Of a stretch of DNA of 64,000 nt, positions 8,177 through 53,256 are shown one piece after another. Made by a program: the position numbers and the translations under genes. Location: assembly GCA_029834535.1 (NCBI GenBank), contig JAQMWT010000349.1:124001-188000 (forward strand), given 5' to 3'. The notes under the pieces are model-generated. The model saw only the letters and a list, made by a program, of their open reading frames with translations. It was not told the DNA's origin and searched no databases. Positions within the stretch are counted from its first letter, which is position 1, and every line of letters begins with the position of its first letter. Source of the DNA: Chrysophaeum taylorii. Lineage: Eukaryota; Sar; Pelagophyceae; Pelagomonadales; Pelagomonadaceae.

Positions 8177-11100
8177 CTGAGGTCGCGCGCTTTAGGTGAA
8201 TGAATTCCTTCTCTATGCGAAGAGCACAAATTACTATAAAAAGCGATCTGAAACTGACTCTGGGCTATGCAAAGGCATCGAGCTTGAAAAAGCGCTTGTT
8301 CTTGGAGGTCGAGCCATAATCCGTGCGCACGAGGGACCCATCGTTTGGTTGCTCCTCGAAAAGCGCCCACAGAAAGTCAACTTGATGCTCTGATGCTGCC
8401 CTCCCGTCACAATCTGTGGAAAAACCCTTCGCTTCGATGGAGAGATCATCGCTTCGGCTCGCCAACACAACGTTTGCTCCGCCGACAATCTCGAGCGACG
8501 GGATCAGGTCGTACATCAGTCGAGTTTTGTAGCTGGCAATAGTGGTAGCCTATGCGTGAATCACGTGATCAGTGCGCAGGACATGTAAAGTGTCATGGAG
8601 AATTTAATCGTGTGGCGAACCTGAAGAAAATTCGTCAGGCTCAATGTCAACTCGAGCAACGAGCTTGCTACGATGATTTTATCGAGCTCGGAGTTCGACA
8701 ACTCGAAGAATGCGCTCCCTTGTGCACGATCAACAGCAGCTGCCAACGTCGCGCTCTCAGCCGCAGCTGCCGCACTCCAGCGAAAAGTCATCTGCCTACC
8801 AGCGCTGCCCGTTGATTGATCGGCCCGCAATGTGTAATTCTCGCAGACAGATATCGACGTGGGACCTTGGAACACGACGCGCGGGATGATGGCATTGGTG
8901 GGCGCCGTTGCGTGTATGGTCGTCGCTTTCACCGGTTCGAAGCAATCACACCTGTGCACGAATCATCAGATTGTCGACCGAGTGCCTCAGGCTATAGTAT
9001 ATTGAATTTCCACGAGGGCTTTTGATCTGACAGCGAGACGCACCTTTCGTCGTCAGCGCATTCTGCTCCCACCACGCCACCCAGGAGCGTGACGTTGCTT
9101 CCTGGCACGAAGCCAAGAGCACTGCTGATGATGGCATCTACAAACGTTGCGTTCACCCACGTGCACGTTGTCGCATCGACACCCGCGAACACAAACAGCT
9201 CGTTGCAGGCGAAATCCACGCCCGCGACGCGCCCAGCGCGATTTGTCGGCGAGTCGAAGGTGAGATCCAGGCGAGCGCCACTCGAGCTGAATTTCGCCCA
9301 GAGAAGCTTTGGTGGCTCGGGAATGTCAAGTTTATCGCACGGGACTTGGGTTGGTGATGTGGACGGCTCGCTGCCAGTCGGAACTGAGGACGGGTGTGGC
9401 GTCATTGGGTGAAGCGTCGGCGAGATGCTGGTCCACGTTGGGGCGTGACTCCGTACAACGATCGGTTGTCGCGTCGGACTTTGCGTTGGCGTCTCCGTAA
9501 CGACCTTAACTCTCGTTTCGTCCGCGATAATAGCCAGCGAAGCGCCCTCGTCGACTGATGCTTCGTCCAATGGCGACGTGGTGTTCGCCGCCGCGACGGC
9601 AGCTCGTAGTGAGTCTTGGAGAGGACTCGTTGACGTGTTGACCGAGGTCGTAACCGCAGTCGAGAGTTGTGCTTCGACGCGAGAAGCGAGCAAGGACTGT
9701 TTGGTTGCTGAGACATAACGGAATAAGACGACAAATGAGACATCAGTCAAACTTTCGCCTTGCTGCAGCAGTCGACTGGTGTCCGCAAGCCGACGAGTTG
9801 TACGATCTTGCGCTTGGACGTCGGTCACGTCATCGGCACCGTCTATCATGCCGACCAAAACCGTTGAAACAAGATCTGCTTCGGTTTCGCCGAACACACT
9901 TGCTGTAATGCCCGCGAAGACGACAGATGATCCAACGCCAAGAGTCACATTACTTTCTACTGACGGTGCGGGGGTCGGCGGCTCGGTGGGAGACATCGTC
10001 GGTAGAACCAACTCTCTGGATTGCGACGACGGATAGCTTGTTGGCACCACCACACTGGGTAGCGCGCTTGGTTGCGTTGCTCGCAATTGACTTGGTTTCA
10101 TCGCGGTGCGCACTGCCGTGGGAACGTGCGTGCTAATTGGTGTTGGATAAGGCACAGTCTCGACATAGGTTGGTGCTGTCGTATTCGAACCAAGTGTTGG
10201 ATCCTCAGATATTGTGCTCGACGGTCGCGTAGTTGGAACAAGTGAGGGATTGCCTGTCGAAGCAGCTGGCATTTCGGACGAGACACTACCCGTCGGAATC
10301 ATCGTAACACTTGCCGTTGGCAGCATTGTCGGCGTGCTCGTGGACCACAATGTTGATACCATCGTAGGTAGAGTGACAGGTACAGTCAGAGGTTGAGATG
10401 TCGGCGTTGGCATCGACGTTGACGTTGACGTAGGCGATAGCGACGGATGGGGGATTGGCACCCACGATGGTTGAAGTGTTGGCCCGGATGACGGTTCGGA
10501 AAATGATGAATCAACGCTGGGAAAAGTGGATGGTTCTCCGTCGTTTGACATCGTGGGTGTCAGTGATGCGCTCTGAGTGGGTGATATGCTCGAAGGATAC
10601 GGGATGCTTGCGGTCGGAAACCCCGAAGACAGCACGGTGCTAGGCGTGATTCCCATCCTACCGACGCCGGGTGCCGATGGCTGCGTCTGCGAGGAGACTA
10701 CTGAACTAGGAGATGCTGTCATACGAGCTTCACTGTGATTGAAGCTCGGAAGTGGCGACGGCGCAGAAAGTAAGACTGTAGGCATTGGTAATGGCGACGA
10801 GTGCGTCGCCAATGAAACAGGAGACGTTGTCGCTTTGGACACGCTCGGCACGGGGCTCGAGTGCAAACGTGTGGGAGCTGTCGAGGCGTTGACGTTGCTT
10901 GGCTGCGCTACTGGCAATGGCGTCGGCGATTTAATTGGGCCCGTGGTCGGCACGCTCGAGATTTCAGCAGACGGTGCCGCCGATGGTAGCGATGTTGGCC
11001 TTTGAGTTGGGGAAGGCGACAGCGACGGACCACTCGTGGGAGACGAGGTTGGTGACTTTGATGGGACACTCGAAGGAGCTGTCGACGGAACAAGGAGCAA

Positions 11101-14100
11101 GCGTTCGCTAACTGCAGACGGGTGCGTTGATGGTGCTGCTGTAGGGCACGGAGATGGCCCGGGAGACAACGATGGAGAAAATGTGGGAGAAGAGGTTGGC
11201 AGCCGCGAGGGAATGCTCGTTGATGTTGTTGGATTCAGAGTTGGCGAAGGCGACAGCGATGGAGGGCTCGTTGGGAGGCTCGTCGGAGTTGTCGATGGTT
11301 GGCGCAGGAGATCACCACCAGAATGTGATAGCGAAGGATGAGTAGTTGGAGAGGAGGTGGGCTGTTGAGAAGGGATCATGGTCGGGATTTTAGATGGGCC
11401 GTGCGATACTGCACTTAACACCGATGGTTGTGATGTTGGACTCCAACTCGGGTACGGACTTGGTGAGGGACTTGGAGACTGAGTTAGTGGCACACTTGCG
11501 CCGAAAAGTGATCTCGTGGGCAGCCTTGAAGGAGAGCGCGTGCTCGGCGGAGCAGTCGGAGACGGCGGCGAAGGCACAAGTGTGGAAGGCTGGAGCGAGG
11601 TTGACACGAAGGGGCAGATCGTCGGTGCCCCACTGGGGAAGTTCGACGGCTCAGACGTTGGAAGCACTGAGGGCACAACTGTGGATGACGCTGAGACATG
11701 GGTCGTTGGAGCTTCGTCAAAAAAGGCTGATGACGGCGTCGTGGGATGCAGTGAATCAAGGGCTGATGGTTTTGACTTGGGCGATGCACTCGGAATGCCG
11801 CTAGGGAAGCTCGAGGGACTGCTTGCAGGTGCAGAGCTCGACATGCTTGAGGGCAAAGGAGATGGTTTCATCGTCGGTAGCGAGATAGGAACTGACGTCG
11901 GGACTGCAGTGGGGAAAGAGCTGGGCGGCTTTGTGGGAAATGACGACGGGAAGGATCTGGGCGTGGGCTGATTCGTGGGTGTTGTTGTCGGGATCTTTCG
12001 TATCGACGAGGGGATGGCACTCGGAAACAGACTCGGGTGCTTTGTGGGTTGGGTCGTCGGCACTGCAATAGGTGAGACTGTCAGTTCAGAGGTCGGGGCG
12101 CTCGTTGGAAGCGATGATGGCTCGGAGCTGGAAGCGCGCGACGGAATCGAAGACGGGCTCACAGACGGCTGGCTCGATGGACTCGCGCTTGGCATGCTGC
12201 TTGGTGACACTACGGGGAGAGTCGACGGCACAGATGTTGGAAACGACGCTGGCAAAGGTGAGGGAAACGAACTGGGCTCCTTTGAAGGCGCGGTCGATGG
12301 TGAGAGTGTTGGCAGATTTGTTGGCACTCCTGAGGGGACTCCTGTTACGATTGACGGGCTTGAGCTCGGTGCGCTCGACGGCAGATGAGAGGGAATCGAC
12401 GTTGGCCCGACGACGAAAGGAACAGGAGTCGGAACCGCTGTTGGATATGAGTCAGGCTGCTCCGTGGGCCTTGTTGTCGGGGATGAGATGGGCATGAAAG
12501 TTGGCAGCGACGATGGGCAATTGCTAGGTCCGTTTGACGGCGCTGCCAACGGATTACCAGATGGGGCTCCGGTGGTGGGTAGCCTCGTAGGCGTTCCACT
12601 TGGGACGCCACTCGGGAAACTCGCCGGTGCAGCGCTCGGCATGCTCAAAGGCAGTGGAGAAGGATCCGTGGTTGGGAACGAGACGGGTAGTGACGTCGGC
12701 AACGCTGAGGGATAGGAGTACGGCCGGTGAATTGGTCTTGTCGTTGGCAAGGAGCTAGGTGGTATGCTTGTTGGATCAGTCGAAGGCGCGGCTGTTGGTG
12801 CTTTCGTGGAAAGCGATGAGGGCCAGGAGCTGGGTGCGCTTGAAGGAGTTGCAGAAGGGGTTCCGATCGGACGGCTTGCAGGCGACGCGCTCGGAGCAAT
12901 GCTCGGGACGCTCGAGGGACTTGCCATAGGCACAGAACTCGGCTTGCTCGAAGGTAGAGGAGAAGGAACCGTCGTCGTCGGGACCGAGGTGGGCAAAGAC
13001 GTTGGCAACGCCGTGGGATACGAATAAGGCTGCCGCGTTGGCCCCGTCGTCGTCGGCGATGAGTTTGGTATGCGCGTTGGATCTTCTGAAGGAGAAACGG
13101 TCGGTGCTGTAGTGGGAATCGATGACGGCCGAGAGCTCGGTGCGCTCGAAGGAGTGGCAGATGGGGTTCCGATGGGTCGGATAGAGGGCAATTCGCTCGG
13201 AGCTAGGCTAGGGTCGCTCGAAGGCACTGAGATCGGCGTGCTCGAAGGTAGAGGAAACGGAAACGTCGTTGGAAATGACACGGGTATTGAAGTCGGCACC
13301 GCTGTAGGGTACGAGGAAGGCTGCCGCGTTGGCCCCGTCGTCGTCGGCGATGAGGTTGGTATGCGTGTTGGGTCTGCGGAAGGAGCGGTGGTCGGAATCC
13401 ACGACGGCCGAGAGCTGGGAACGCTCGATGGAGAGACTGTTGGGGTTCCGATGGGTCCGGTAGAGGGCAAAGCACTTGGAGCCGTGCTAGGGACGCTCGA
13501 GGGACTTACCGTTGGCACAATCCTCCAAGGTAGAGTAGACGGAAACACCGTCGGGAACGATGTGGGTAATAACGTGGGATACGAGTAAGGCTGCCGCGTT
13601 GGCCCTGTCGTCGTCCCCGATGAGGTTGGTGTGCGTGATGGATTTGCTGAAGGAGCGGCGGTCGGTGCGTTGGTCGGAATCCACGACGGCCGGGAGCTGG
13701 GTACGCTTGAAGGAGGAGAGGCGGACGGAGGTACAGTCGGTCTGCTCGAAGGCAATTCGCTCGGAGCTGTGCTAGGATTGCTCGAGGAACTTGCCGTAGG
13801 CACAGAACTCGGCATGCTCGAAGGTAGAGGAAACGGAACCATCGTCGGGGACGATGACGGCACTGCTGTGGGATTAGAGTAAGGCTGCCGCGATGGCCCC
13901 GTCGCCGTCGGCGATGAGGTTGGTGTGCGTGTTGGATCTGCTGAAGGCGCAGCGGTCGGTGTTTCGGTGGGAAGCCATGATGGCCAGGGACTTGGTGCTC
14001 TTGAAGGAGCGGCAGATGGGGTTTCAGAGGGCTGGGTAGATGGCAAAGGGCTCGGAGCTGTGCTAGGGGTTGCCGTAGGCACAGAAAACGGAATCGTCGT

Positions 14101-17100
14101 CGGGGATGATGTGGGTGCTGTCGACGGCACCGCTGTAGGGTACGAGGAAGGCTGCCGCGATGGCCCCGTCGTCGTCCCCGATGAGGTTGGTGTGCGCGAT
14201 GGATTTGCTGAAGGAGCCGCGGTCGGTGCGTTGGTTGGAATCCACGACGGCTGGGAGCTAGGGACGCTCGAAGGAGTGGCAGATGGGGTTCCAACGGGTA
14301 GGGTTGAGGGCAAAGCGCTCGGAACCGGTGTGGGGACGCTCGAGGGACTTGCTGTTGGTATAGACGTCGTCGGCATGCTTGAAGGCAGAGGAGAAGGAAC
14401 TGTTGTCGGGAACGACGTGGGTCCTGATGTCGGCAGCGCTGTTGGATTAGAGTAAGGCTGCGGCGATGGCCCCGTCGTCGGCGACGAGCTTGGTACGAGC
14501 GTTGGATCTGCTGAAGGAGCCGTGGTCGGTGCGTTGGTCGGAATCCACGACGGTCGGGAGCTGGGTGCGCTCGAAGAAGGAGATGCAGATGGAGTTACTG
14601 TCGGTCGGCTCAAAGGCAATTCGCTCGGAGCTAGGCTAGGGTCGCTCGAAGGACGCGCCGTCGGCACAGAGATCGGCACGCTCGAAGGTAGAGGAAACGG
14701 AACCGTCGTTGGGAACGACGAGGGTACTGACGTCGGCAATGTTGTGGGACACGAAAAAGGCTGCCACGTTGGCCCTGTCGTCGGCGATGAGTTTGGTACG
14801 AGTGTTGGGTCTGCTGAAGGCGCGGCGGTCGGTGCTTTTGTTGGAAGCGGGGATGGCCAGGAACTGGGTGCTCTTGAAGGAGGAGCAGAGGGCAACGCGG
14901 TTGGAACGCTGCTGCTAGGAAAACTCGAGGGAATCGCTGACGGCGCCGAGGTGGAAGGTGGGCGCGACGGGTCAGTCGTCGGGAACGAACTGGGTACTGA
15001 CGTCGGCACAGCCGTGGGAAACGATCTCGGCTGTTTCGATGGCGACGAAGTGGGTACGCGTGTCGGGTCTGCTGAAGGAGCCACGGTGGGTATCGAAGTC
15101 GGTGCTATGATGGGAAAGGATGAGGGCAAGGCGCTGGGTGCGGTCGACGGAAGCGACGAAGGTGTTACGCTGGGCGCGAGCGAAGGTCGCGAGGAGGGGC
15201 CGGCCGTAACTGTCGGCGCGTTCGTGGGCCGGCAGCTGTAGTTTGTTTCGGTGGTGTATTCCTCCGTCAAACGACGACGCGATGGAGGTGCAACATGCAA
15301 TTCTTCGCCATCGATACTTTGCCTATTAATCAAATAAGTCCGCTCCGAGTTACCGAGCTGCCACGATATCTCCCATTCAAATTTACCACCCGTGACGGTG
15401 ATCACGTACGAACCGGGAGCGTCGCAATGTATGCAAACCCCCTGCGTCCCTTGGTAGCCAGAGGAGAGCGTGCCCTGCTCGACCTCGCAACTCGAACATG
15501 CCGAGTTGTTGATCGTAAAGCAGCCCCCGTTCCAGCCATCGCCAGCGAGGTCGTACATGAAAAAGTCCATTAAGGTTCCGTTGCAGGTTGAGTTGGTCGA
15601 GTTTGTTTGCGGACAATCCACGTCGTCGTCGTCGTCGTAAAAGAAGGTGGGCACAGCGGTGGGTATTCCAGACGGTCGCCTCGAAGGCGATGCGCTCGGG
15701 GCCGTGCTAGGGACGCTCGAGGGACTTGCGGTTGGCACAGAGATCGGTACGCTCGAAGGTAGGGGAAGCGGAAGCGTCGTCGGGAACGATGTGGGTCCTG
15801 ATGTCGGCACCGCCGTAGGATACGAGTAAGGTTGCCGCGTCGGCGATGAGCTTGGTTCGAGTGTTGGATTTGCTTCAGGAGCGGGAGTCGGTGCTTCGGT
15901 GGGAAACGACGACGGCCGGGAGGTGGGTGCGCTTGAAGGAGAGGCAGACGGAGTTCCGGTCGGTCGGCTCGAAGGCGATACACTTGGAGCGATGCTAGGG
16001 ACGCTCGACGGACTCGACGCAGGCACCGAACTCGGTACGTTCGAAGGTAGAGGAGTTGGAAAAGTCGTCGGGAACGATGTGGGTGCTGACGCCGGCACCA
16101 CTGTGGGATACGAGGAAGGCTGCCGAGTTGGCCAAGAGCTGGGCGCGCTCGAAGGAGAGGCAGACGGGGCTCCGATGGGTCGAGTAGAGGGCAAAGCGCT
16201 TGGAGCGATGCTAGGGACGCTCGACGGACTCGACGCAGGCACCGAACTCGGTACGCTCGAAGGTAGAGGAGTTGGAAAAGTCGTTGGGAATGACGCGGGT
16301 ACTGACGTCGGCACCACCGTGGGATACGAGGAAGGTTGCCGCGTTGGCGAAGAGCTGGGTGCGCTCGAAGGAGAGGCAGATGGAGTTCCGATGGGTCGGC
16401 TCGACGGCGATTCACTTGGAGCCGTGCTGGGTACGCTCGAGGGACCTGCCATCGGCACAGAGCTCGGCGCGCTCGAGGGTAGAGAAACCGGAACGTTCGT
16501 TGGGAACGAGGCGGGCAACGACGTCGGCACCACCGTGGGATACGAGGAAGGTTGCCGCGTTGGCGAAGAGCTGGGTGCGCTCGAAGGAGAGGCAGATGGA
16601 GTTCCGATGGGTCGGCTCGACGGCGATTCACTTGGAGCCGTGCTGGGTACGCTCGAGGGACCTGCCATCGGCACAGAGCTCGGCGCGCTCGAGGGTAGAG
16701 AAACCGGAACGTTCGTTGGGAACGAGGCGGGCAACGACGTCGGCACCACCGTGGGATACGAGGAAGGTTGCCGCGTTGGCGAAGAGCTGGGTGCGCTCGA
16801 AGGAGAGGCAGATGGAGTTCCGACGGGTCGGCTCGACGGCGATTCACTTGGAGCCGTGCTGGGTACGCTCGAGGGACCTGCCATCGGCACAGAGCTCGGC
16901 GCGCTCGAGGGTAGAGAAACCGGAACGTTCGTTGGGAACGAGGCGGGCAACGACGTCGGCACCGCCGTAGGATACGATCTCGGCTGCTTCGAGGGCGTCG
17001 TCGTCGTCGGCGACGAGCTAGGCACGTGTGTCGGGTCTGTCGAGGGAGCCACGGTCGGTGGTGTGGTGGAAAGGGATGAGGGCGAGGCGCTGGGGGCGGT

Positions 17101-18915
17101 CGACGGTTGCGACGAGGGTGTTACGCTGGGCGCGAGCAAAGGCCGCAAGGACGGGCTGGCTGTAGTTGTTGGCGTGTTCGTGGGTCGGCAGGTGAATGTG
17201 GTTCCGGTGGAATAGTCGTCTTCATCCGTCAAACGACGACGATCACCTTCTTCCTCCTCCTCATCACCATAATCGCCGCCGTAGAGGCTCGTTTTCGGCA
17301 AGTTCCCGAGTTGCCACGATATCTCCGAGGGGAATATTCCATGCGTGACGGTGATCACGTACGAACCGGGAGCGTCGCAATGTATGCACACCTCCTGCGT
17401 CCCTTGGTAGCCAGAGTAGAGCGTGCCCTGCTCGACCTCGCAACTTGGACATGCCGAGTTGTTGATCGCGAAGCAGGCCCCGTTCCAGCCGTCGCCCCAG
17501 TCGTCGTACATGATAAAGTCCATCAACGTCCCGTTGCACGTCGAATTGGTCGAGTTCGTTTGCGGGCAACCAACAGCGTCATCGTAGTAACCTCCTTCGT
17601 CGTCGAATATAAACGGCGTGGGCGTCACCGGCAAGGGCGTCACCGGCGCGGGCGAACTCTTAGTCCTAATCGTGGGGCACGCTGTTGGCACGCGTGTGGA
17701 CGGACCCCACGTGGACGGAAAGTAGAAAATTTGGCCGTCGTCTTCCTGCATGCCGTCGTCGACCTGTATGTTCCCCTGGTCCAGCTCTCTGGACGCCGAC
17801 ACTGAGAAAGGTACGCGCGAAAAAACGTACGCAACGTCGCCGGCACCTTCGCTACCAGCAACAACTACGAGCGCGTTGTCGTATAGAGCTACGGTCCGAC
17901 TGAAGACTCCTTCATCGCTGCCTGGGAGCTTGGCGATGATCTGAACGTGTGTCCCTTGGTTATGCTCGAACACGTAGGTCGCGCCGGAGTCGTGATCGCC
18001 CCCGGCGCCGACGGCAATCTTGTCGTCGAATATCGCGACCGAGCGTCCGAACCAGTCGTTGGCGGCGGCGCCATCGCTCGCTTTGAGCTTGGCAAGCTGG
18101 GCGTAGGTCGGACCACCACCACCGAAAACGTAAACCGCCCCCGCGTCGCTGTAGCCATCGACATCGCAGAATCTCGCGCCGGCGACGATCGTGGCGTCGT
18201 ACACGGCCACCGCCTCGCCCAACCCGTCGCTTTCGGCGGCGTCGCTCGCGGCGAGTTTTTTCTTCCGAGCGCAGGTCGCGGCGTCGAAGACGTACGCAGC
18301 ACCCGCGGCGTTCTCATTTTTTGGGGCTCCCACAACGATCGTGGTTCGGTGTATCGCAACGGACCGACCGAAAGCATCTCTCGGGTGCTCGCCCGAGAGC
18401 TCGCAGAGCGGGTCGAAGCTCGTGCCGTCGAACACGTAAACCGAGCCGCCGCGGTATGCGCCGACGACGATCTTGTTGTCGAAGATCGCCACGGAGCAGC
18501 CAAAATAGACTCCCGGTGCACTCGGAGTAAGCTTGGCGAGTCGAACCAACGACTCGAGGTCGAACACGTGGGCTGCCCCGGCGTCGACGCCGACTTGGTC
18601 ATCGTACATCGCGCCGACGACGATCACGCTGGCGTCGAGCGCGACCGAGCACCCGAACAACGAAGTTTTTTTGTCGTCGTCGAGTTTCGCGAGTTGGGCG
18701 TGGGTTGTCGCGTCGAAGACGTACGCCGCGTCGTCGCGGACCCCGACGACACCGACAACGATCACATTTTCGAAGGTCGCCGTCGCAACATTCTTCTTTT
18801 CCCCGTGCGCGGCCACCACCCGCGTGGCTTGACTCGTCAGCTGCCGACCGCTCACCAGAGCGACCAGCAGCCACATCCACATGATCGATCGGTCGGTCGA
18901 TATGGGAATTTCCAT
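3362..18915 (-). CDS. Giant mosaic surface protein: propeller, Ser/Pro stalk, REJ/GPS, polycystin-1-like membrane region
   Basis: I read this as one gene with four exons (18915-9044, 8951-8621, 8549-8271, 8176-3362), because frames join across short introns and the domains follow on. The start is the ATG at 18915, which gives a hydrophobic signal peptide (around MWMWLLVALVS); the frame open upstream lacks an ATG. Order: FG-GAP/integrin-alpha-like beta-propeller (about 18830-17800); a domain with D-x-x-GDGWNG (17575-17320) and a second copy (15620-15350); a Pro/Ser stalk; a SEA-like segment (about 9950-9480); REJ-like Ig/PKD modules (about 9400-6200); a GPS-like Cys/Trp motif (about 6145-6030) lacking the usual HL-S/T cleavage site; then about seven or eight membrane helices with a large cytosolic insert containing a poly-Gln run. 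It is probably a cell-surface adhesin or mechanosensory protein of the polycystin-1/REJ type. No PLAT domain was recognised. The domain calls are from motifs, and the joining of exons is inference. Confidence 0.72.
8177..8270 (-). other. Intron 3 of the giant gene (probable GC-AG, 94 bp)
   Basis: The upstream exon reads in frame up to Asp-Ala-Phe (8279-8271) and then meets gcatag, an in-frame stop. The next exon resumes after cctcag at 8176 with Ala-Leu-Ala-Ser-Asn. No GT donor lies close enough to keep the conserved strand of the REJ module, so a GC-AG intron fits best. An earlier GT donor near 8320 would delete about 17 residues. Confidence 0.5.
8550..8620 (-). other. Intron 2 of the giant gene (GT-AG, 71 bp)
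   Basis: The donor follows ...ttcttcag with gttcgccac, and the acceptor is ...cgcatag before gctaccact. The junction is phase 0 (Leu-Gln followed by Ala-Thr-Thr). Both sides are beta-rich REJ-like sequence on the same strand. Confidence 0.65.
8952..9043 (-). other. Intron 1 of the giant gene (GT-AG, 92 bp)
   Basis: On the (-) strand the exon ends ...gaaag and the intron begins gtgcgtctcg. It ends ...gtgcacag before gtgtgattgc. Splicing restores AGG TGT GAT TGC (Arg-Cys-Asp-Cys) and links two coding segments of the same REJ-like protein. Unspliced, the frame stops at 8992. Confidence 0.75.
9044..18915 (-). CDS. Exon 1 of the giant mosaic gene (extracellular propeller and Ser/Pro stalk)
   Basis: A single open exon of about 3,290 codons. 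It encodes the signal peptide, a propeller of repeats of the form V-A-I-x-D-x-x-I-V-V-G-A with Y-V-F-D, two Cys-containing GDGWNG domains, each followed by an acidic or RRRLT segment, and thousands of residues of P-S-x-x-P-S/T repeats. It ends with a module with conserved Cys and Trp (C-N-E-L-F-V-F ... C-T-W) typical of the membrane-distal part of REJ proteins in this lineage. The exon ends at GAA AG followed by the donor gtgcgt. Ser/Thr/Pro richness implies dense O-glycosylation of an extended stalk (inference). It could be called as a stand-alone gene, since the frame runs on to a stop at 8992, but the continuation across the intron is better. Confidence 0.75.
9410..15245 (-). repeat. Ser/Pro-coding repeat block 2 (main stalk)
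   Basis: About 5.8 kb coding for degenerate Pro/Ser/Thr/Ala repeats with recurring P-S-S-x-P-S and P-T-x-x-P-T triplets, loosely arranged in units of about 70 residues. The units become less regular toward the membrane-proximal end. Codon choice (CCG/CCC/TCG) makes the complementary strand read as Gly/Val/Asp/Glu-rich open frames, which explains the long spurious (+) frames. Confidence 0.8.
15640..17215 (-). repeat. Ser/Pro-coding repeat block 1, between the two GDGWNG domains
   Basis: This block encodes P-S-S-x-P-S/T-x-x-P units organised in a higher-order 72-residue (216-bp) period, lying between the two GDGWNG domains of the giant protein. Periods keep the reading frame, so expansion or contraction alters stalk length without breaking the protein. 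Confidence 0.85.
16349..16996. repeat. Three nearly identical 216-bp tandem copies
   Basis: Copies start at 16349, 16565 and 16781, exactly 216 bp apart, beginning gaagagctgggtgcgctcga. They differ at only a few positions by eye (for example c/t near 16612 and 16829). Their near-identity against the more diverged neighbouring units shows a recent expansion inside the coding stalk. Collapse or over-expansion in assembly is also possible here. Confidence 0.85.
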
Positions 18916-49161: not shown

Positions 49162-52100
49162 TCACTGCGTGCAGTAGGCGCCGGGGTCGAGTCCTAGGTC
49201 GCGAAGCTCGCGATCCAGGCCGGCGACGACCGTGCGCGCATTCTCGTCCGACAGCGTCTGGAGGTAGGCGCGGAGGTCGCGGTCCCGGCGGTCGCGCTGC
49301 GCGATCTCGAATGCCTCCCGGCCGCGCGCAGGAAACAGACCCTCGCCGTGCGCACAGGTGCGGACGTGCTTGTGCGCGTCGGCGCCGCAGTCGGCGAGAC
49401 AATAGGCGCAGAAGCTGCAGCCGCAACCGGGGCGGTGGCATCGCAGCGCGAAGCAGCCATCAAAGCCCTGATGGCCGTCGAGCGCCTCGGCGAACGCGGC
49501 GCCGCACCGCGGACACGCGAGGGTGAGGATGCGTTCGACGACGTGAAGGCGCATCTCGCGCGTGGGTCCCGCCGCGATCCGCTGTGCTTCGGCTTGGACG
49601 CGCCTGTCGAATCCCGCCTCGAGGTCGGCTACGATCCGCTGCTCGAGCAGTCTCGTCTTCGCGGAGAAATACGCGGCGAAGACGTGCTGGGGCACGTGCG
49701 ACGCGACGGCGGCGTCCGTGTAGCACTCGTCGCACCCCACCCCGACGCATTGAATCCGCCCACCGCGCTCCTCGAAGGCGCGCAGGCTCTCAGCGTCCGT
49801 GTTGGCGCGCGCGTGGCCGGCGAGGCACTCGTCGCACGCGAAGTGCCCTCGCGTCGCGCACTCCACGCCAGCGATGCCCGCGTCGCCGCATACCTCGCAT
49901 TGCCGAAGGGACACTCTTTCCGCGACGGCCTGGTCGGCTAAGATCTTGTCGCTCGCCGCGAAAAACGAAGAGGTTTCGAGCGCGCTCGCGGTCGGCCGCT
50001 CGAGACCGACGCCGAGGCACGCGCGCAAGACCGCGGCCAGCGGATCGTCGTCGCGACGGCTGGTTGCTTGGAACACCACGTCGTCTTGTTCGTTGAGCGC
50101 GTGCTGCGCAGTCTTGTCGTCGGCAGCGAGCGCGACGGCGACGCATATCCCGTAGGAAAACACGTCCGACTCTAGCGTCGCTCGAGCTCCCTCTCGGACC
50201 TCGGGCGCGACGTATCCGGGGGTGCCGCCGCCCACCCGTGTAGTCATCGTGATCGAGGAGGAGGAGGAGGAGGAGGAGGAGGATCCGCCGTCGTCGAGCA
50301 CGGCCCGACTCATGTCGAAGTCGCTCAAGACGACCGTCCACGTCCCGTTAGCTCTAACGTCGACGAGCGCGTTGTCGAGCTTGACGTCGCCGTGGACGAC
50401 GCGTTTGGCGTGGACGTACGACAGGGCGGCGAGGAGTTGCCGGAGGGCCCGCACGTGCGTGGTCGCGACGCGACGGTACTCCGCATTCATAAACCGCAGC
50501 GCGCCCCACCGCGAGATTGCTGCTCCTTCTTCTCCGATAGCTTTGTTCTCGGGTCGAGAAAGCCAGCGTCGCAGCGTGCCGCCGCGATACAAAGGACTCT
50601 GGACGAAGGCCTCCGCGTCTCCTGCACGAGCGTTATCCACAAAGAACACGCACTCCAGCTTCAAGATGTTTGGGTGAGCCAAAGCGACGAGCATTTCCAC
50701 TTCTCGCTCCAAGCCGCGTCGCTCCGAAGAGTTTCGAAGGTGGAACTGTTTCAAGACGCACGGTCGGCCGTCGTAGAGACAAGCTACCACTGTGTGACGG
50801 GACGCGGGGGGCTCGATATCCTCTGGCCACGGGATTCGTTCGTAGTCGTGCGGGTTGCGTCCTTGGCGAACGACGCCGCGCAGCGCGGGCGACAGCGCGA
50901 CGACCGAAGCGAGCGCGTCCTTCGCGACCCGCCCGAGCTCGGGGAAGTGATCTTGAACCAGCTCGACTAATCTGCTCAATTCGTCCTCTGTGGCGCGCTG
51001 AGCGCGATGGAGATCCTTCCGTGCGGCGCGCACTTTCTCAGTCAGCAGGACCACGTCGGGGGGGGCCTTTTCCTCTTCGCCAGCAGCAGCGGCAGCGGTA
51101 GCAGCATCCTGGAAAAAATGGGCCATTTTAGCGTCCTCTAGTTCGTGCTGCGCGTCTTCCAAGTCGCGCTGCGAATTTCGGAACACTTTCTTCGCATTTC
51201 GCAACCACCTGTTCGATTCGCGCCATCGCTTGTCCCCGAGCGCCGCGCTGCTTTCGGCCGCGGCGATCTCGTCGACTCGGGCGCGAGCCTCGCGCGCGCG
51301 GTCGCGTGCCCGACCGACCTCCGACAGGCTGTTTCTGCACGCGTCCAGGCTCGCGACGATGGCACTCTGAATGACGTCCACGGGCAGCAGCGAAAAAGGA
51401 TGGGGGCACGACGACCAGTGCGTCAGCTCGCGGTCGACGGCCTCGATTGCTTCGCGACGCGATTCTTCCCAAATATCGCACGCGTCCCGCGCGCCTCGAG
51501 CCTCGGCCACGTCGCGCAGCGCGCGCCAGGCCTCCGCCAAAGCACGGTCTGTCGCGTCGGCAACGGCACTTGGGTCGGTTATCTGCTCCCAGAGCTCGAA
51601 CGCGCGGCGGACCACCGTTCGCGGCGGCGGCGGCGGCGGCGGCAGCTTGGTGGTGGTGGTGGTGGTGGTGGTGGTCGTCGTCGTCGTCGTCGTCGGATCT
51701 TCTGTCGGTGGCGTCTGAAACTCGCTCCGAATCTTCTCGAGCGAACTGAGAGAAGCTTCTAACAGCTGCATGTCGCGCTCGAGGGCACGACGCTCGCGAC
51801 CGAGGTCCGAGCTCGAGTACCCCGTTTGGAGGGCGATCAACGCCCGGACGTACCGCGACCGCACCTCGTTGCGTCCTTCGACGACCGACTCGAGCTCCGC
51901 ACTTCCATCGTTAAGAGCACTGCGAACGCGGGCCTGCGCTTCGGCGAGCTTGCCGCGCTCAACGCGAGCTTGGCCTCGCAACTGCTGGAACTTGTCGAGC
52001 GACTCGGTCTCGACGGGGATAGTCTCGGAGGAGCGGCGATCAAACCTCTCAATCACCGCGCGCAGGGGTTCGAACAATCTCCCGTCGGTGCCACGCGATG

Positions 52101-53256
52101 AATAGTCGGTTCTCGCAGCATAAACTTGTTCGGCAGCTTGACGCAGCGCGGTCATGGGGGCGTGGGCGCTCGCGTCGAGCCGCGCCGCGACCTCCTGATC
52201 CGCGGAGCCGTCCGCGATCTCTCGGTCTCGCGGCGGCTCGATTACCAAGACGGAATCCGAGTTGTTCGGGGCACAGTATAACTTGCCCGCGCACTCCGCG
52301 TTGCCACTCCACTTTGCCTCGCCGCGAACGCCACAGTCGATGGTTCGCGCGGCGGCATCACCGTTCGAAGGATTCAAAACCAGGATCGAATCCGCGTTCC
52401 ACGGCGAAAAGTACAGCGCGCCCGCGCACTCCGAAATGCCGCACCACTTACCCCCGCCTCGAACACCGCAGTCGATGACGCGTGCGACATCTGCGTTCGA
52501 CGGATCGATCACCAGGATCGAATCCGTTTTGTAAGGCGCGCAGTACAGCTTGCCCTCGCACGCGGCGATGCCGTTCCACTTCCACTTCCCTCGAACCCCG
52601 CAGTCGATGAGCCGCGTGGCATCTCCGTCCGAGGGATCGATCACCAAGATATAATCGGCGTTCCAAGGCGCGCAGTAGAGCTTGCCCGCGCACGCGGCGA
52701 TGCCGCTCCACTTGTTGCGGCCTCGAACGCCGCAGTCGACGACTCGCGTCGCGTCATCTGTTGGATCGATCACCAGAATCGAATCTGCGCTGAACGGCGA
52801 GCAGTAAAGCTGGCCTTCGTACTGGGCGATGCCAGCCCACTTCGCCCCACCGCGAACGCCGCAGTCGATGGTGTACGTCGCGTCTCCGTTCGAGGGATCG
52901 ATGACCAGAATCGAATCTGCGTTCCACGGCGCGCAGTACAGCTTGCCCGCGCGCTCCGCGATGCCATACCACTTTCCCCCGCCCCCAACGCCGCAATCAA
53001 TGGTACGCGTGGCGTCCGCGTTCGAGGGGTCGACCACCAGGATCGAGTCCGAGCTGAACGGCGCACAGTACAGCTTGCCGGCGCACTCTGCGATGCCAAT
53101 CCACTTGCCCCCGCCTCGATGACCACAGCTGATGGTGCGGATGGTCGCTCCCGCCTCCAATTCCTCCAATTCCTCCAATTCCTCCAATTCCTCCAATTCC
53201 CCCGGGGGGGGGTCCAAGGCCTCTTCTTGGGCCTCTGCGCCGACGACCGAGCACAT
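49162..53256 (-). CDS. Propeller-protein kinase-RING/IBR fusion protein
   Basis: 1,364 residues from the first ATG at 53256; the open frame upstream has no ATG and is built on a microsatellite. An acidic Leu-Glu-Glu repeat leads into seven 44-residue repeats (about 44-355; K-W-x-G-I-A-x-C-x-G-K-L-Y-C-A-P ... S-I-L-V-I-D-P) that suggest a seven-bladed propeller. A helical region of about 430 residues follows. The kinase domain (about 825-1080) has V-L-K-Q-F, H-G-D-V-K-L-D-N (Gly in place of Arg of HRD), D-F-D in place of D-F-G, and G-T-P-G-Y-V-A-P-E-V. The C-terminus (about 1115-1300) is RBR-like: C-E-V-C-G ... C-D-E-C, then C-P-R-C-G-A-A-F, C-F-A-L-R-C, C-S-F-C-A-Y-C-L-A-D-C and H-x-C-type closing ligands. 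This implies ubiquitin-ligase activity linked to a possibly altered kinase. No characterised protein with this order is known to me. Confidence 0.85.
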   Translation of the reverse strand: MCSVVGAEAQEEALDPPPGELEELEELEELEELEAGATIRTISCGHRGGGKWIGIAECAGKLYCAPFSSDSILVVDPSNADATRTIDCGVGGGGKWYGIAERAGKLYCAPWNADSILVIDPSNGDATYTIDCGVRGGAKWAGIAQYEGQLYCSPFSADSILVIDPTDDATRVVDCGVRGRNKWSGIAACAGKLYCAPWNADYILVIDPSDGDATRLIDCGVRGKWKWNGIAACEGKLYCAPYKTDSILVIDPSNADVARVIDCGVRGGGKWCGISECAGALYFSPWNADSILVLNPSNGDAAARTIDCGVRGEAKWSGNAECAGKLYCAPNNSDSVLVIEPPRDREIADGSADQEVAARLDASAHAPMTALRQAAEQVYAARTDYSSRGTDGRLFEPLRAVIERFDRRSSETIPVETESLDKFQQLRGQARVERGKLAEAQARVRSALNDGSAELESVVEGRNEVRSRYVRALIALQTGYSSSDLGRERRALERDMQLLEASLSSLEKIRSEFQTPPTEDPTTTTTTTTTTTTTTTKLPPPPPPPRTVVRRAFELWEQITDPSAVADATDRALAEAWRALRDVAEARGARDACDIWEESRREAIEAVDRELTHWSSCPHPFSLLPVDVIQSAIVASLDACRNSLSEVGRARDRAREARARVDEIAAAESSAALGDKRWRESNRWLRNAKKVFRNSQRDLEDAQHELEDAKMAHFFQDAATAAAAAGEEEKAPPDVVLLTEKVRAARKDLHRAQRATEDELSRLVELVQDHFPELGRVAKDALASVVALSPALRGVVRQGRNPHDYERIPWPEDIEPPASRHTVVACLYDGRPCVLKQFHLRNSSERRGLEREVEMLVALAHPNILKLECVFFVDNARAGDAEAFVQSPLYRGGTLRRWLSRPENKAIGEEGAAISRWGALRFMNAEYRRVATTHVRALRQLLAALSYVHAKRVVHGDVKLDNALVDVRANGTWTVVLSDFDMSRAVLDDGGSSSSSSSSSSITMTTRVGGGTPGYVAPEVREGARATLESDVFSYGICVAVALAADDKTAQHALNEQDDVVFQATSRRDDDPLAAVLRACLGVGLERPTASALETSSFFAASDKILADQAVAERVSLRQCEVCGDAGIAGVECATRGHFACDECLAGHARANTDAESLRAFEERGGRIQCVGVGCDECYTDAAVASHVPQHVFAAYFSAKTRLLEQRIVADLEAGFDRRVQAEAQRIAAGPTREMRLHVVERILTLACPRCGAAFAEALDGHQGFDGCFALRCHRPGCGCSFCAYCLADCGADAHKHVRTCAHGEGLFPARGREAFEIAQRDRRDRDLRAYLQTLSDENARTVVAGLDRELRDLGLDPGAYCTQ
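52203..53130 (-). repeat. Seven 132-bp coding repeats (propeller blades)
   Basis: Seven tandem copies of a 132-bp (44-codon) unit. Each has G-x-x-K-W, a G-K-L-Y-C-A/S-P core and D-S-I-L-V-I-D-P. Copies are well conserved at DNA level (for example atcgaatc and ttgcccgcgcactccg recur), suggesting recent amplification or gene conversion. Confidence 0.85.
53155..53200. repeat. Nine-base tandem repeat coding Leu-Glu-Glu
   Basis: Repeats of ttcctccaa on the (+) strand encode L-E-E-L-E-E units at the N-terminus of the propeller-kinase-RBR protein. Copy number probably varies between strains. Confidence 0.8.

Follow-up and report, generated by a model that had tools for sequence, protein, structure and literature searches.

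A propeller-kinase chain ending in a probable IBR-less, RBR-type ubiquitin ligase part in the alga Chrysophaeum taylorii

What could a single protein do that carries a repeated propeller at one end, a protein kinase in its middle and a cluster of cysteines and histidines resembling a ubiquitin ligase at the other? The question is raised by a gene of the pelagophyte Chrysophaeum taylorii (genome of 70.8 Mb in 697 contigs) that lies on the reverse strand of a 64,000-nucleotide stretch analysed here (contig C349, positions 124001-188000, hereafter the window). The gene runs from 53256 to 49162 as one uninterrupted open frame, with an ATG start, 1364 codons and a stop, and needs no intron. By comparison with known ligases its C-terminal part is a probable ligase of the RBR type that has RING1 and Rcat (RING2) but no IBR, with a Cys-free and probably helical linker instead. 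Our proposal, to which we give about an even chance, is that the gene encodes a single-chain, ligand-gated, kinase-regulated and thioester-forming ubiquitin ligase. Coordinates of its parts are collected in Table 1.

That the parts belong to one protein follows from a family of paralogs. A search of the same genome with the whole protein gave at least 44 matches, among which cutting the loci at stops left six further intact full-length frames, and all seven intact copies share the seven blades, the domain order and matching Cys/His positions. The sequence-only reading had proposed one open frame, and 1364 residues without an internal stop bear this out; that the single frame spans all domains in seven paralogs speaks against two transcripts. 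A misreading of two genes as one is rejected, since the frame stays open across all domains in every copy. Pairwise NG86 estimates (21 pairs, 20 of them usable for Rcat) gave a median ratio of nonsynonymous to synonymous substitution rates (dN/dS) of 0.294 for the propeller, 0.391 for the coil, 0.228 for the kinase, 0.284 for RING1, 0.237 for the linker, 0.114 for Rcat, the lowest, and 0.238 for the tail, at a median dS of 0.81-1.21 across domains. Because the ratio is low in every part, the entire chain, linker included, is kept by selection as one protein; judged by these ratios, the family is under purifying selection and the fusion is not there by chance. The helical region is the least conserved part, with a median pairwise identity of 0.48.

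Broken copies were also found, on C456, on C309 and as a near-identical pair on C25 and C521, as well as a frame on C24 that matches only residues 38-434 of the window protein. The C25 and C521 copies (C25:140727-142884; C521:140716-142873) are the same broken copy in a near-identical place with equal scores, which suggests that these are duplicate haplotype contigs of the assembly. Among the intact copies, the RING1 of L007 holds a short internal duplication (two GRIQCVG.. stretches) that keeps the frame.

The ligase part carries the most unusual feature. The C3HC4 ligands of RING1, the putative ligands of Rcat and Cys1268 are invariant in all seven copies, and the same holds for a relative of only 34% identity, L029 on C389; the linker between the two clusters has no Cys and is 68-73 residues long throughout. 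When the family was compared as a profile with five canonical RBR proteins of the same genome, RING1 fell on RING1 and Rcat on Rcat, with the IBR opposite the linker (probability 95%, E-value 3.6e-8 for that single comparison). Additionally, Rcat matched a parkin chain (PDB ID: 9c5e; E-value 0.0027), aligning GC-x4-C on GC-x4-C. With Pfam, neither RING nor IBR was reported for the full window protein at E-values up to 1, or for the C-terminal part alone at E-values up to 10. A full RBR was considered and rejected, as the linker holds no IBR ligands. The RING/IBR-type cluster that had been read from the sequence is thus sustained for RING1 and for a RING2 with a Cys at the catalytic position, and fails for the IBR, whose place is taken by the Cys-free linker.

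The propeller is equally well defined. In the window copy its repeats recur every 43-45 residues, in the set of seven paralogs every 41-55, and the window DNA shows the corresponding 132-bp period over 6.7 copies with 74% matches. AlphaFold2, given the alignment of the seven, predicts 28 strands in seven blades, with the N-terminal first strand closing the seventh, at a predicted local confidence (pLDDT) of 75-94 in ten-residue blocks over residues 41-340, mostly near 90. Blades of the LYCAP type number exactly seven in each of the seven paralogs. A profile search matched a YVTN propeller (PDB ID: 1l0q; E-value 1.4e-9), and Pfam reported Glu_cyclase_2 (E-value 1.1e-9 in the window protein; four of the seven members). 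The best Foldseek matches are virginiamycin/streptogramin B lyases (template-modelling score to target 0.86-0.89), followed by beta-TrCP and FBXW11 among the top matches. A propeller of seven 44-residue repeats had been expected from the sequence, and the predicted fold agrees, ring closure included; both features on which the sequence-only reading staked itself are thus found, the propeller as a predicted fold and the RING2 Cys at its catalytic position.

The blades vary in a pattern that suggests where a ligand might bind. Counted from the Leu of LYCAP, variability across the 49 blades is highest at the four positions -13, -12, -9 and +5 (entropy 3.40, 2.83, 3.39 and 3.34 bits), and for each of the seven window blades the predicted structure places them in the D-A loop, at the start of strand A or in the B-C loop. 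These elements make up one face of a propeller by the usual convention. A first site test on the blade tree used an ungapped 29-codon core that lacks the C-D loop and strand D, with two of the 49 blades (L004_6 and L005_7) out of register upstream. Under this model the four variable positions together have an omega of 0.83, not different from 1 (p 0.48), with the remaining 25 core positions at 0.16 (p 9e-69 against 1). The re-test covered the C-D loop and strand D as well, in 44 columns of a gapped alignment with the start of L004_6 masked, and gave ratios of 1.29, 0.62, 0.83 and 1.01 at -13, -12, -9 and +5, none of them significant (p 0.8 at -13); position +5 had stood at 2.68 (p 0.14) in the 29-codon core. 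A position before the tip of the D-A loop has a ratio of 1.09 in the re-test, and a ratio of 1.99 for a conserved Lys in pairwise counts is an artefact of few synonymous changes. Blades are slightly more alike within genes than between them (identity 0.716 vs 0.690), and homogenisation is strong only in L002 (0.859), with the window copy and L003 adding some, L004 and L007 little, and L005 and L006 showing the reverse trend. Between genes, blades at the same position are no closer than others (0.690 vs 0.689).

For the kinase, Pfam reports Pkinase with an E-value of 1.9e-20 (73.8 bits against a cut-off of 31.7) in the window protein and matches all seven members. The residues K836, E852, D957, N962 and D979 are invariant in all seven, as is HGD (955-957); DFD (979-981) is found in six, and L004 has DFE. 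Among solved kinases the best match is a MAP-kinase-kinase-like structure (PDB ID: 9gmp; E-value 2.4e-8), whose aligned stretch likewise reads HGD, and further matches are RIPK1, LIMK1, CDPK1, NEK7 and IRAK1. MNK1 and MNK2 are working kinases, in spite of their DFD. In these human kinases the DFD takes up a DFD-out arrangement, described as blocking ATP (PMC3326643). A dead kinase, if argued from HGD and DFD alone, is therefore rejected, HGD being present in 9gmp and DFD in the MNKs. The kinase with HGD and DFD was correctly recognised from the sequence; calling it possibly altered overstated the case for these two motifs, given catalytic residues invariant in every copy, though the glycine loop is indeed missing and is the odd feature of this domain. 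We consider the kinase probably active and regulated.

Put together, these parts suggest the following mechanism for the ligand-gated ligase. The propeller would bind a target or ligand, most likely through its variable face, and the helical stalk would bring copies together. The kinase might then phosphorylate itself or the ligase part and so release the ligase, by analogy with the action of PINK1 on parkin. RING1, as its homology implies, would take ubiquitin from a charged E2 and hand it to Cys1268 of Rcat, which would transfer it to the target bound by the propeller; the job of the IBR would be done by the linker, or would not be needed here. With seven paralogs sharing one framework and differing in their propeller faces, the family could offer several specificities. 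Natural proteins that keep RING1 and Rcat under constraint and lack the IBR are a direct test of the role of the IBR, which would prove dispensable for the chemistry if the thioester forms, and the joining of kinase and RBR-type ligase in one chain makes a simple system for how phosphorylation switches on such ligases.

Several observations weigh against this proposal. No propeller position has an omega significantly above 1 in either the 29-codon or the 44-column test. On the opposite face, a C-D loop position has a nonsynonymous rate of 1.21, a ratio of 1.10 and an entropy of 2.58, and its neighbours in that loop are moderately variable; because this position changes as fast, the variability of one face is a tendency only. 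The glycine-rich loop (GxGxxG) is absent from the residue table of all seven kinases, which could make this domain a weak kinase or a scaffold. The structural model of the kinase and ligase parts is poor (mean pLDDT 47.6), and the linker helices come from this low-confidence prediction. Lastly, a compendium of human ubiquitin ligases describes RING1, IBR and RING2 as an invariably linked and required triad (PMC13061254), and a version without the IBR might accordingly be inactive.

Other explanations have to be weighed against the same evidence. The chain could be a self-contained phosphodegron machine, in which a propeller receptor like that of beta-TrCP picks the substrate through its variable face, the kinase marks it and the ligase ubiquitinates it, with no sensing or immunity involved. 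The presence of beta-TrCP and FBXW11 propellers among the top Foldseek matches, the retained catalytic residues of the kinase and the union of all three parts in one chain speak for this, yet the propeller superposition is generic, virginiamycin B lyases rank first in Foldseek and by sequence the propeller matches YVTN repeats, and we consider it unlikely. We are similarly sceptical of a pseudokinase scaffold, where the kinase fold would only pass a change of conformation from propeller to ligase and no phosphate would be transferred. Such a role would suit the missing glycine loop and a DFG glycine replaced by Asp in six copies and by Glu in one, but it leaves the five invariant catalytic residues unaccounted for, and DFD is also found in the MNKs, which are working kinases all the same.

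It is rather improbable that RING1 acts alone as a plain RING ligase, the Rcat-like cluster being structural and no thioester forming. The absence of the IBR and the description of the triad as required in the human compendium (PMC13061254) would agree with that, but no domain is under tighter constraint than Rcat (dN/dS 0.114) and Cys1268 is invariant even though it lies outside the eight expected zinc ligands. Least of all do we expect a lineage-specific expansion heading for loss, with a fusion that has no steady role: the broken copies on C456, C25/C521 and C309 and the partial match on C24 are what such decay would leave, yet seven copies have stayed open over about 1300 codons at a median dS of 0.81-1.21 with dN/dS of 0.11-0.39, making this a very remote prospect.

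How does the proposed ligase compare with known systems? Like parkin, ARIH1/HHARI, HOIP, HOIL-1 and RNF216, the protein has a RING1 of RBR type followed by an Rcat with a Cys at the catalytic position; unlike them, it has a Cys-free linker where they have an IBR, and is fused to a propeller and a kinase. PINK1 and parkin also pair a kinase with an RBR-type ligase, but as two proteins, whereas here they form one chain, in which a similar regulation would apply. Plant KEG and the U-box/kinase proteins do combine a kinase and a ubiquitin ligase in one chain, though their ligases are of the RING or U-box scaffold type that forms no thioester, and their accessory domains are others. Among the literature matches listed, there was no propeller-kinase-RBR protein and no RBR without an IBR; as eukaryotic sequence collections lay outside this comparison, the architecture may exist in other algae as unnamed proteins.

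A further comparison is with HET-D and HET-E, the NACHT-WD40 proteins of fungal non-self recognition. In these, each repeat is reported to have four positions under positive selection, located in the D-A and B-C loops (PMC1805685), and many fungal NLRs are described as having repeats of high internal conservation (PMC4986451). Our family is like them in that its repeated blades are similar and vary most in the D-A and B-C loops, on one face, and unlike them in that its blades are YVTN-like and not WD40, no omega is significantly above 1, one position of the opposite face is fast and homogenisation is strong only in L002. Pfam found no NACHT or NB-ARC in the window protein at an E-value of 1, or in any of the seven members at 0.01. 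In this alga the repeated, variable propeller may serve for recognition of an immune kind. That the family are NLR-like receptors for self and non-self or for pathogens, uniting faces that vary as in HET-E, a kinase and an IBR-less thioester ligase in one chain, seems to us quite unlikely.

The same modules occur elsewhere in the genome in other company. Searched with the segment of L029, the genome yielded 12 matches, namely L029 itself, the seven family members, a locus at C315:89509 and three pieces of the broken copies on C456, C25 and C521. In L029/L053 on C389 an IBR-less RING1-Rcat part ends a frame of 1479 codons that by eye is rich in CGH-type zinc motifs and in which Pfam finds weak IBR-type matches (E-values 0.003-0.004) and a domain of unknown function (DUF). 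Separate frames upstream (C389:187500-199900, L053/L060) match AAA_11 (E-value 1.1e-12) and zf-CCCH (E-value 9.9e-10), and together, if they form one gene, these frames presumably resemble ZNFX1-type helicases. This relative shares the IBR-less RING1-Rcat with our family and has neither propeller nor kinase; Pfam found no NFX1-type finger in its frames at an E-value of 0.1. The IBR-less part thus follows at least two front ends that differ from each other. The propeller, too, recurs: on C315 (L015/L018, C315:154181-161218) two frames combine one of the same kind with pieces of a KAP P-loop NTPase (E-value 1.5e-11) and a PH domain (E-value 8.3e-6). Such swapping of sensor and effector parts would, we infer, be typical of recognition systems.

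Some details of these loci are of separate interest. The L053/L060 locus possibly encodes a protein like ZNFX1 whose ligase end is unusual. A third locus, L057 (C315:88000-92000), has RING1-like and Rcat-like clusters over two overlapping frames, with no IBR cluster seen; by eye, the N-terminal part of this locus resembles WWE, and Pfam gives no WWE match. The frames L015:619-3639 and L018:595-2460 are consecutive and share a register, separated by a stop, which may reflect an intron, a break or two genes.

Table 1. Parts of the gene, in window coordinates, and intact paralogs by contig
Feature	Location	Strand	Basis or remark
Whole gene	49162..53256	-	open frame; six other intact paralogs
N-terminal low-complexity stretch, residues 1-37	53146..53256	-	pLDDT <50 for residues 1-35
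9-bp array coding ELE repeats, in N-terminal stretch	53154-53200	-	window copy only, among seven
Seven-bladed YVTN-like beta-propeller, residues 38-342	52231..53145	-	AlphaFold2, PDB profile, Foldseek, paralog blade count
Long helical region, probably coiled-coil, residues 343-790	50887..52230	-	model helices, low to middling confidence
Protein kinase domain, residues 805-1112	49921..50844	-	Pfam Pkinase; residue table
RING1 of RBR type, residues 1118-1180	49717..49905	-	C3HC4: C1120 C1123 C1133 H1138 C1141 C1144 C1170 C1175
Linker replacing the IBR, residues 1181-1246	49519..49716	-	Cys-free, predicted helical (low-confidence model)
Rcat (RING2), residues 1247-1302	49351..49518	-	parkin-chain profile match; conservation
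Catalytic-position Cys1268	49453-49455	-	alignment to parkin and canonical RBRs
Conserved C-terminal tail, residues 1303-1364	49165..49350	-	predicted helical; paralog alignment; dN/dS 0.238
Paralog L002	C551		intact, 65% identity to window copy
Paralog L003	C202		intact, 63% identity to window copy
Paralog L004	C349 (window's own contig)		intact, 64% identity to window copy
Paralog L005	C407		intact, 62% identity to window copy
Paralog L006	C524		intact, 59% identity to window copy
Paralog L007	C524		intact, 64% identity to window copy; L009 is the same gene

The window copy differs from its paralogs in a few simple stretches. Its helical region has a Thr/Pro-rich insert that the alignment shows in none of the other six, and the simple repeats at 50255-50283, 51648-51675 and 53154-53200, which encode runs of Ser, Thr and Glu-Leu-Glu, are likewise missing from all six; these runs perhaps vary in length between strains. 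Elsewhere in the window, a frame of 3307 codons on the reverse strand (8992-18915) holds very long repeats of the PSSxPS type and is probably the reason for the strong GC skew over positions 10001-18000. By eye, the window also fits an alga in holding a frame resembling plastid FtsH and several long open frames.

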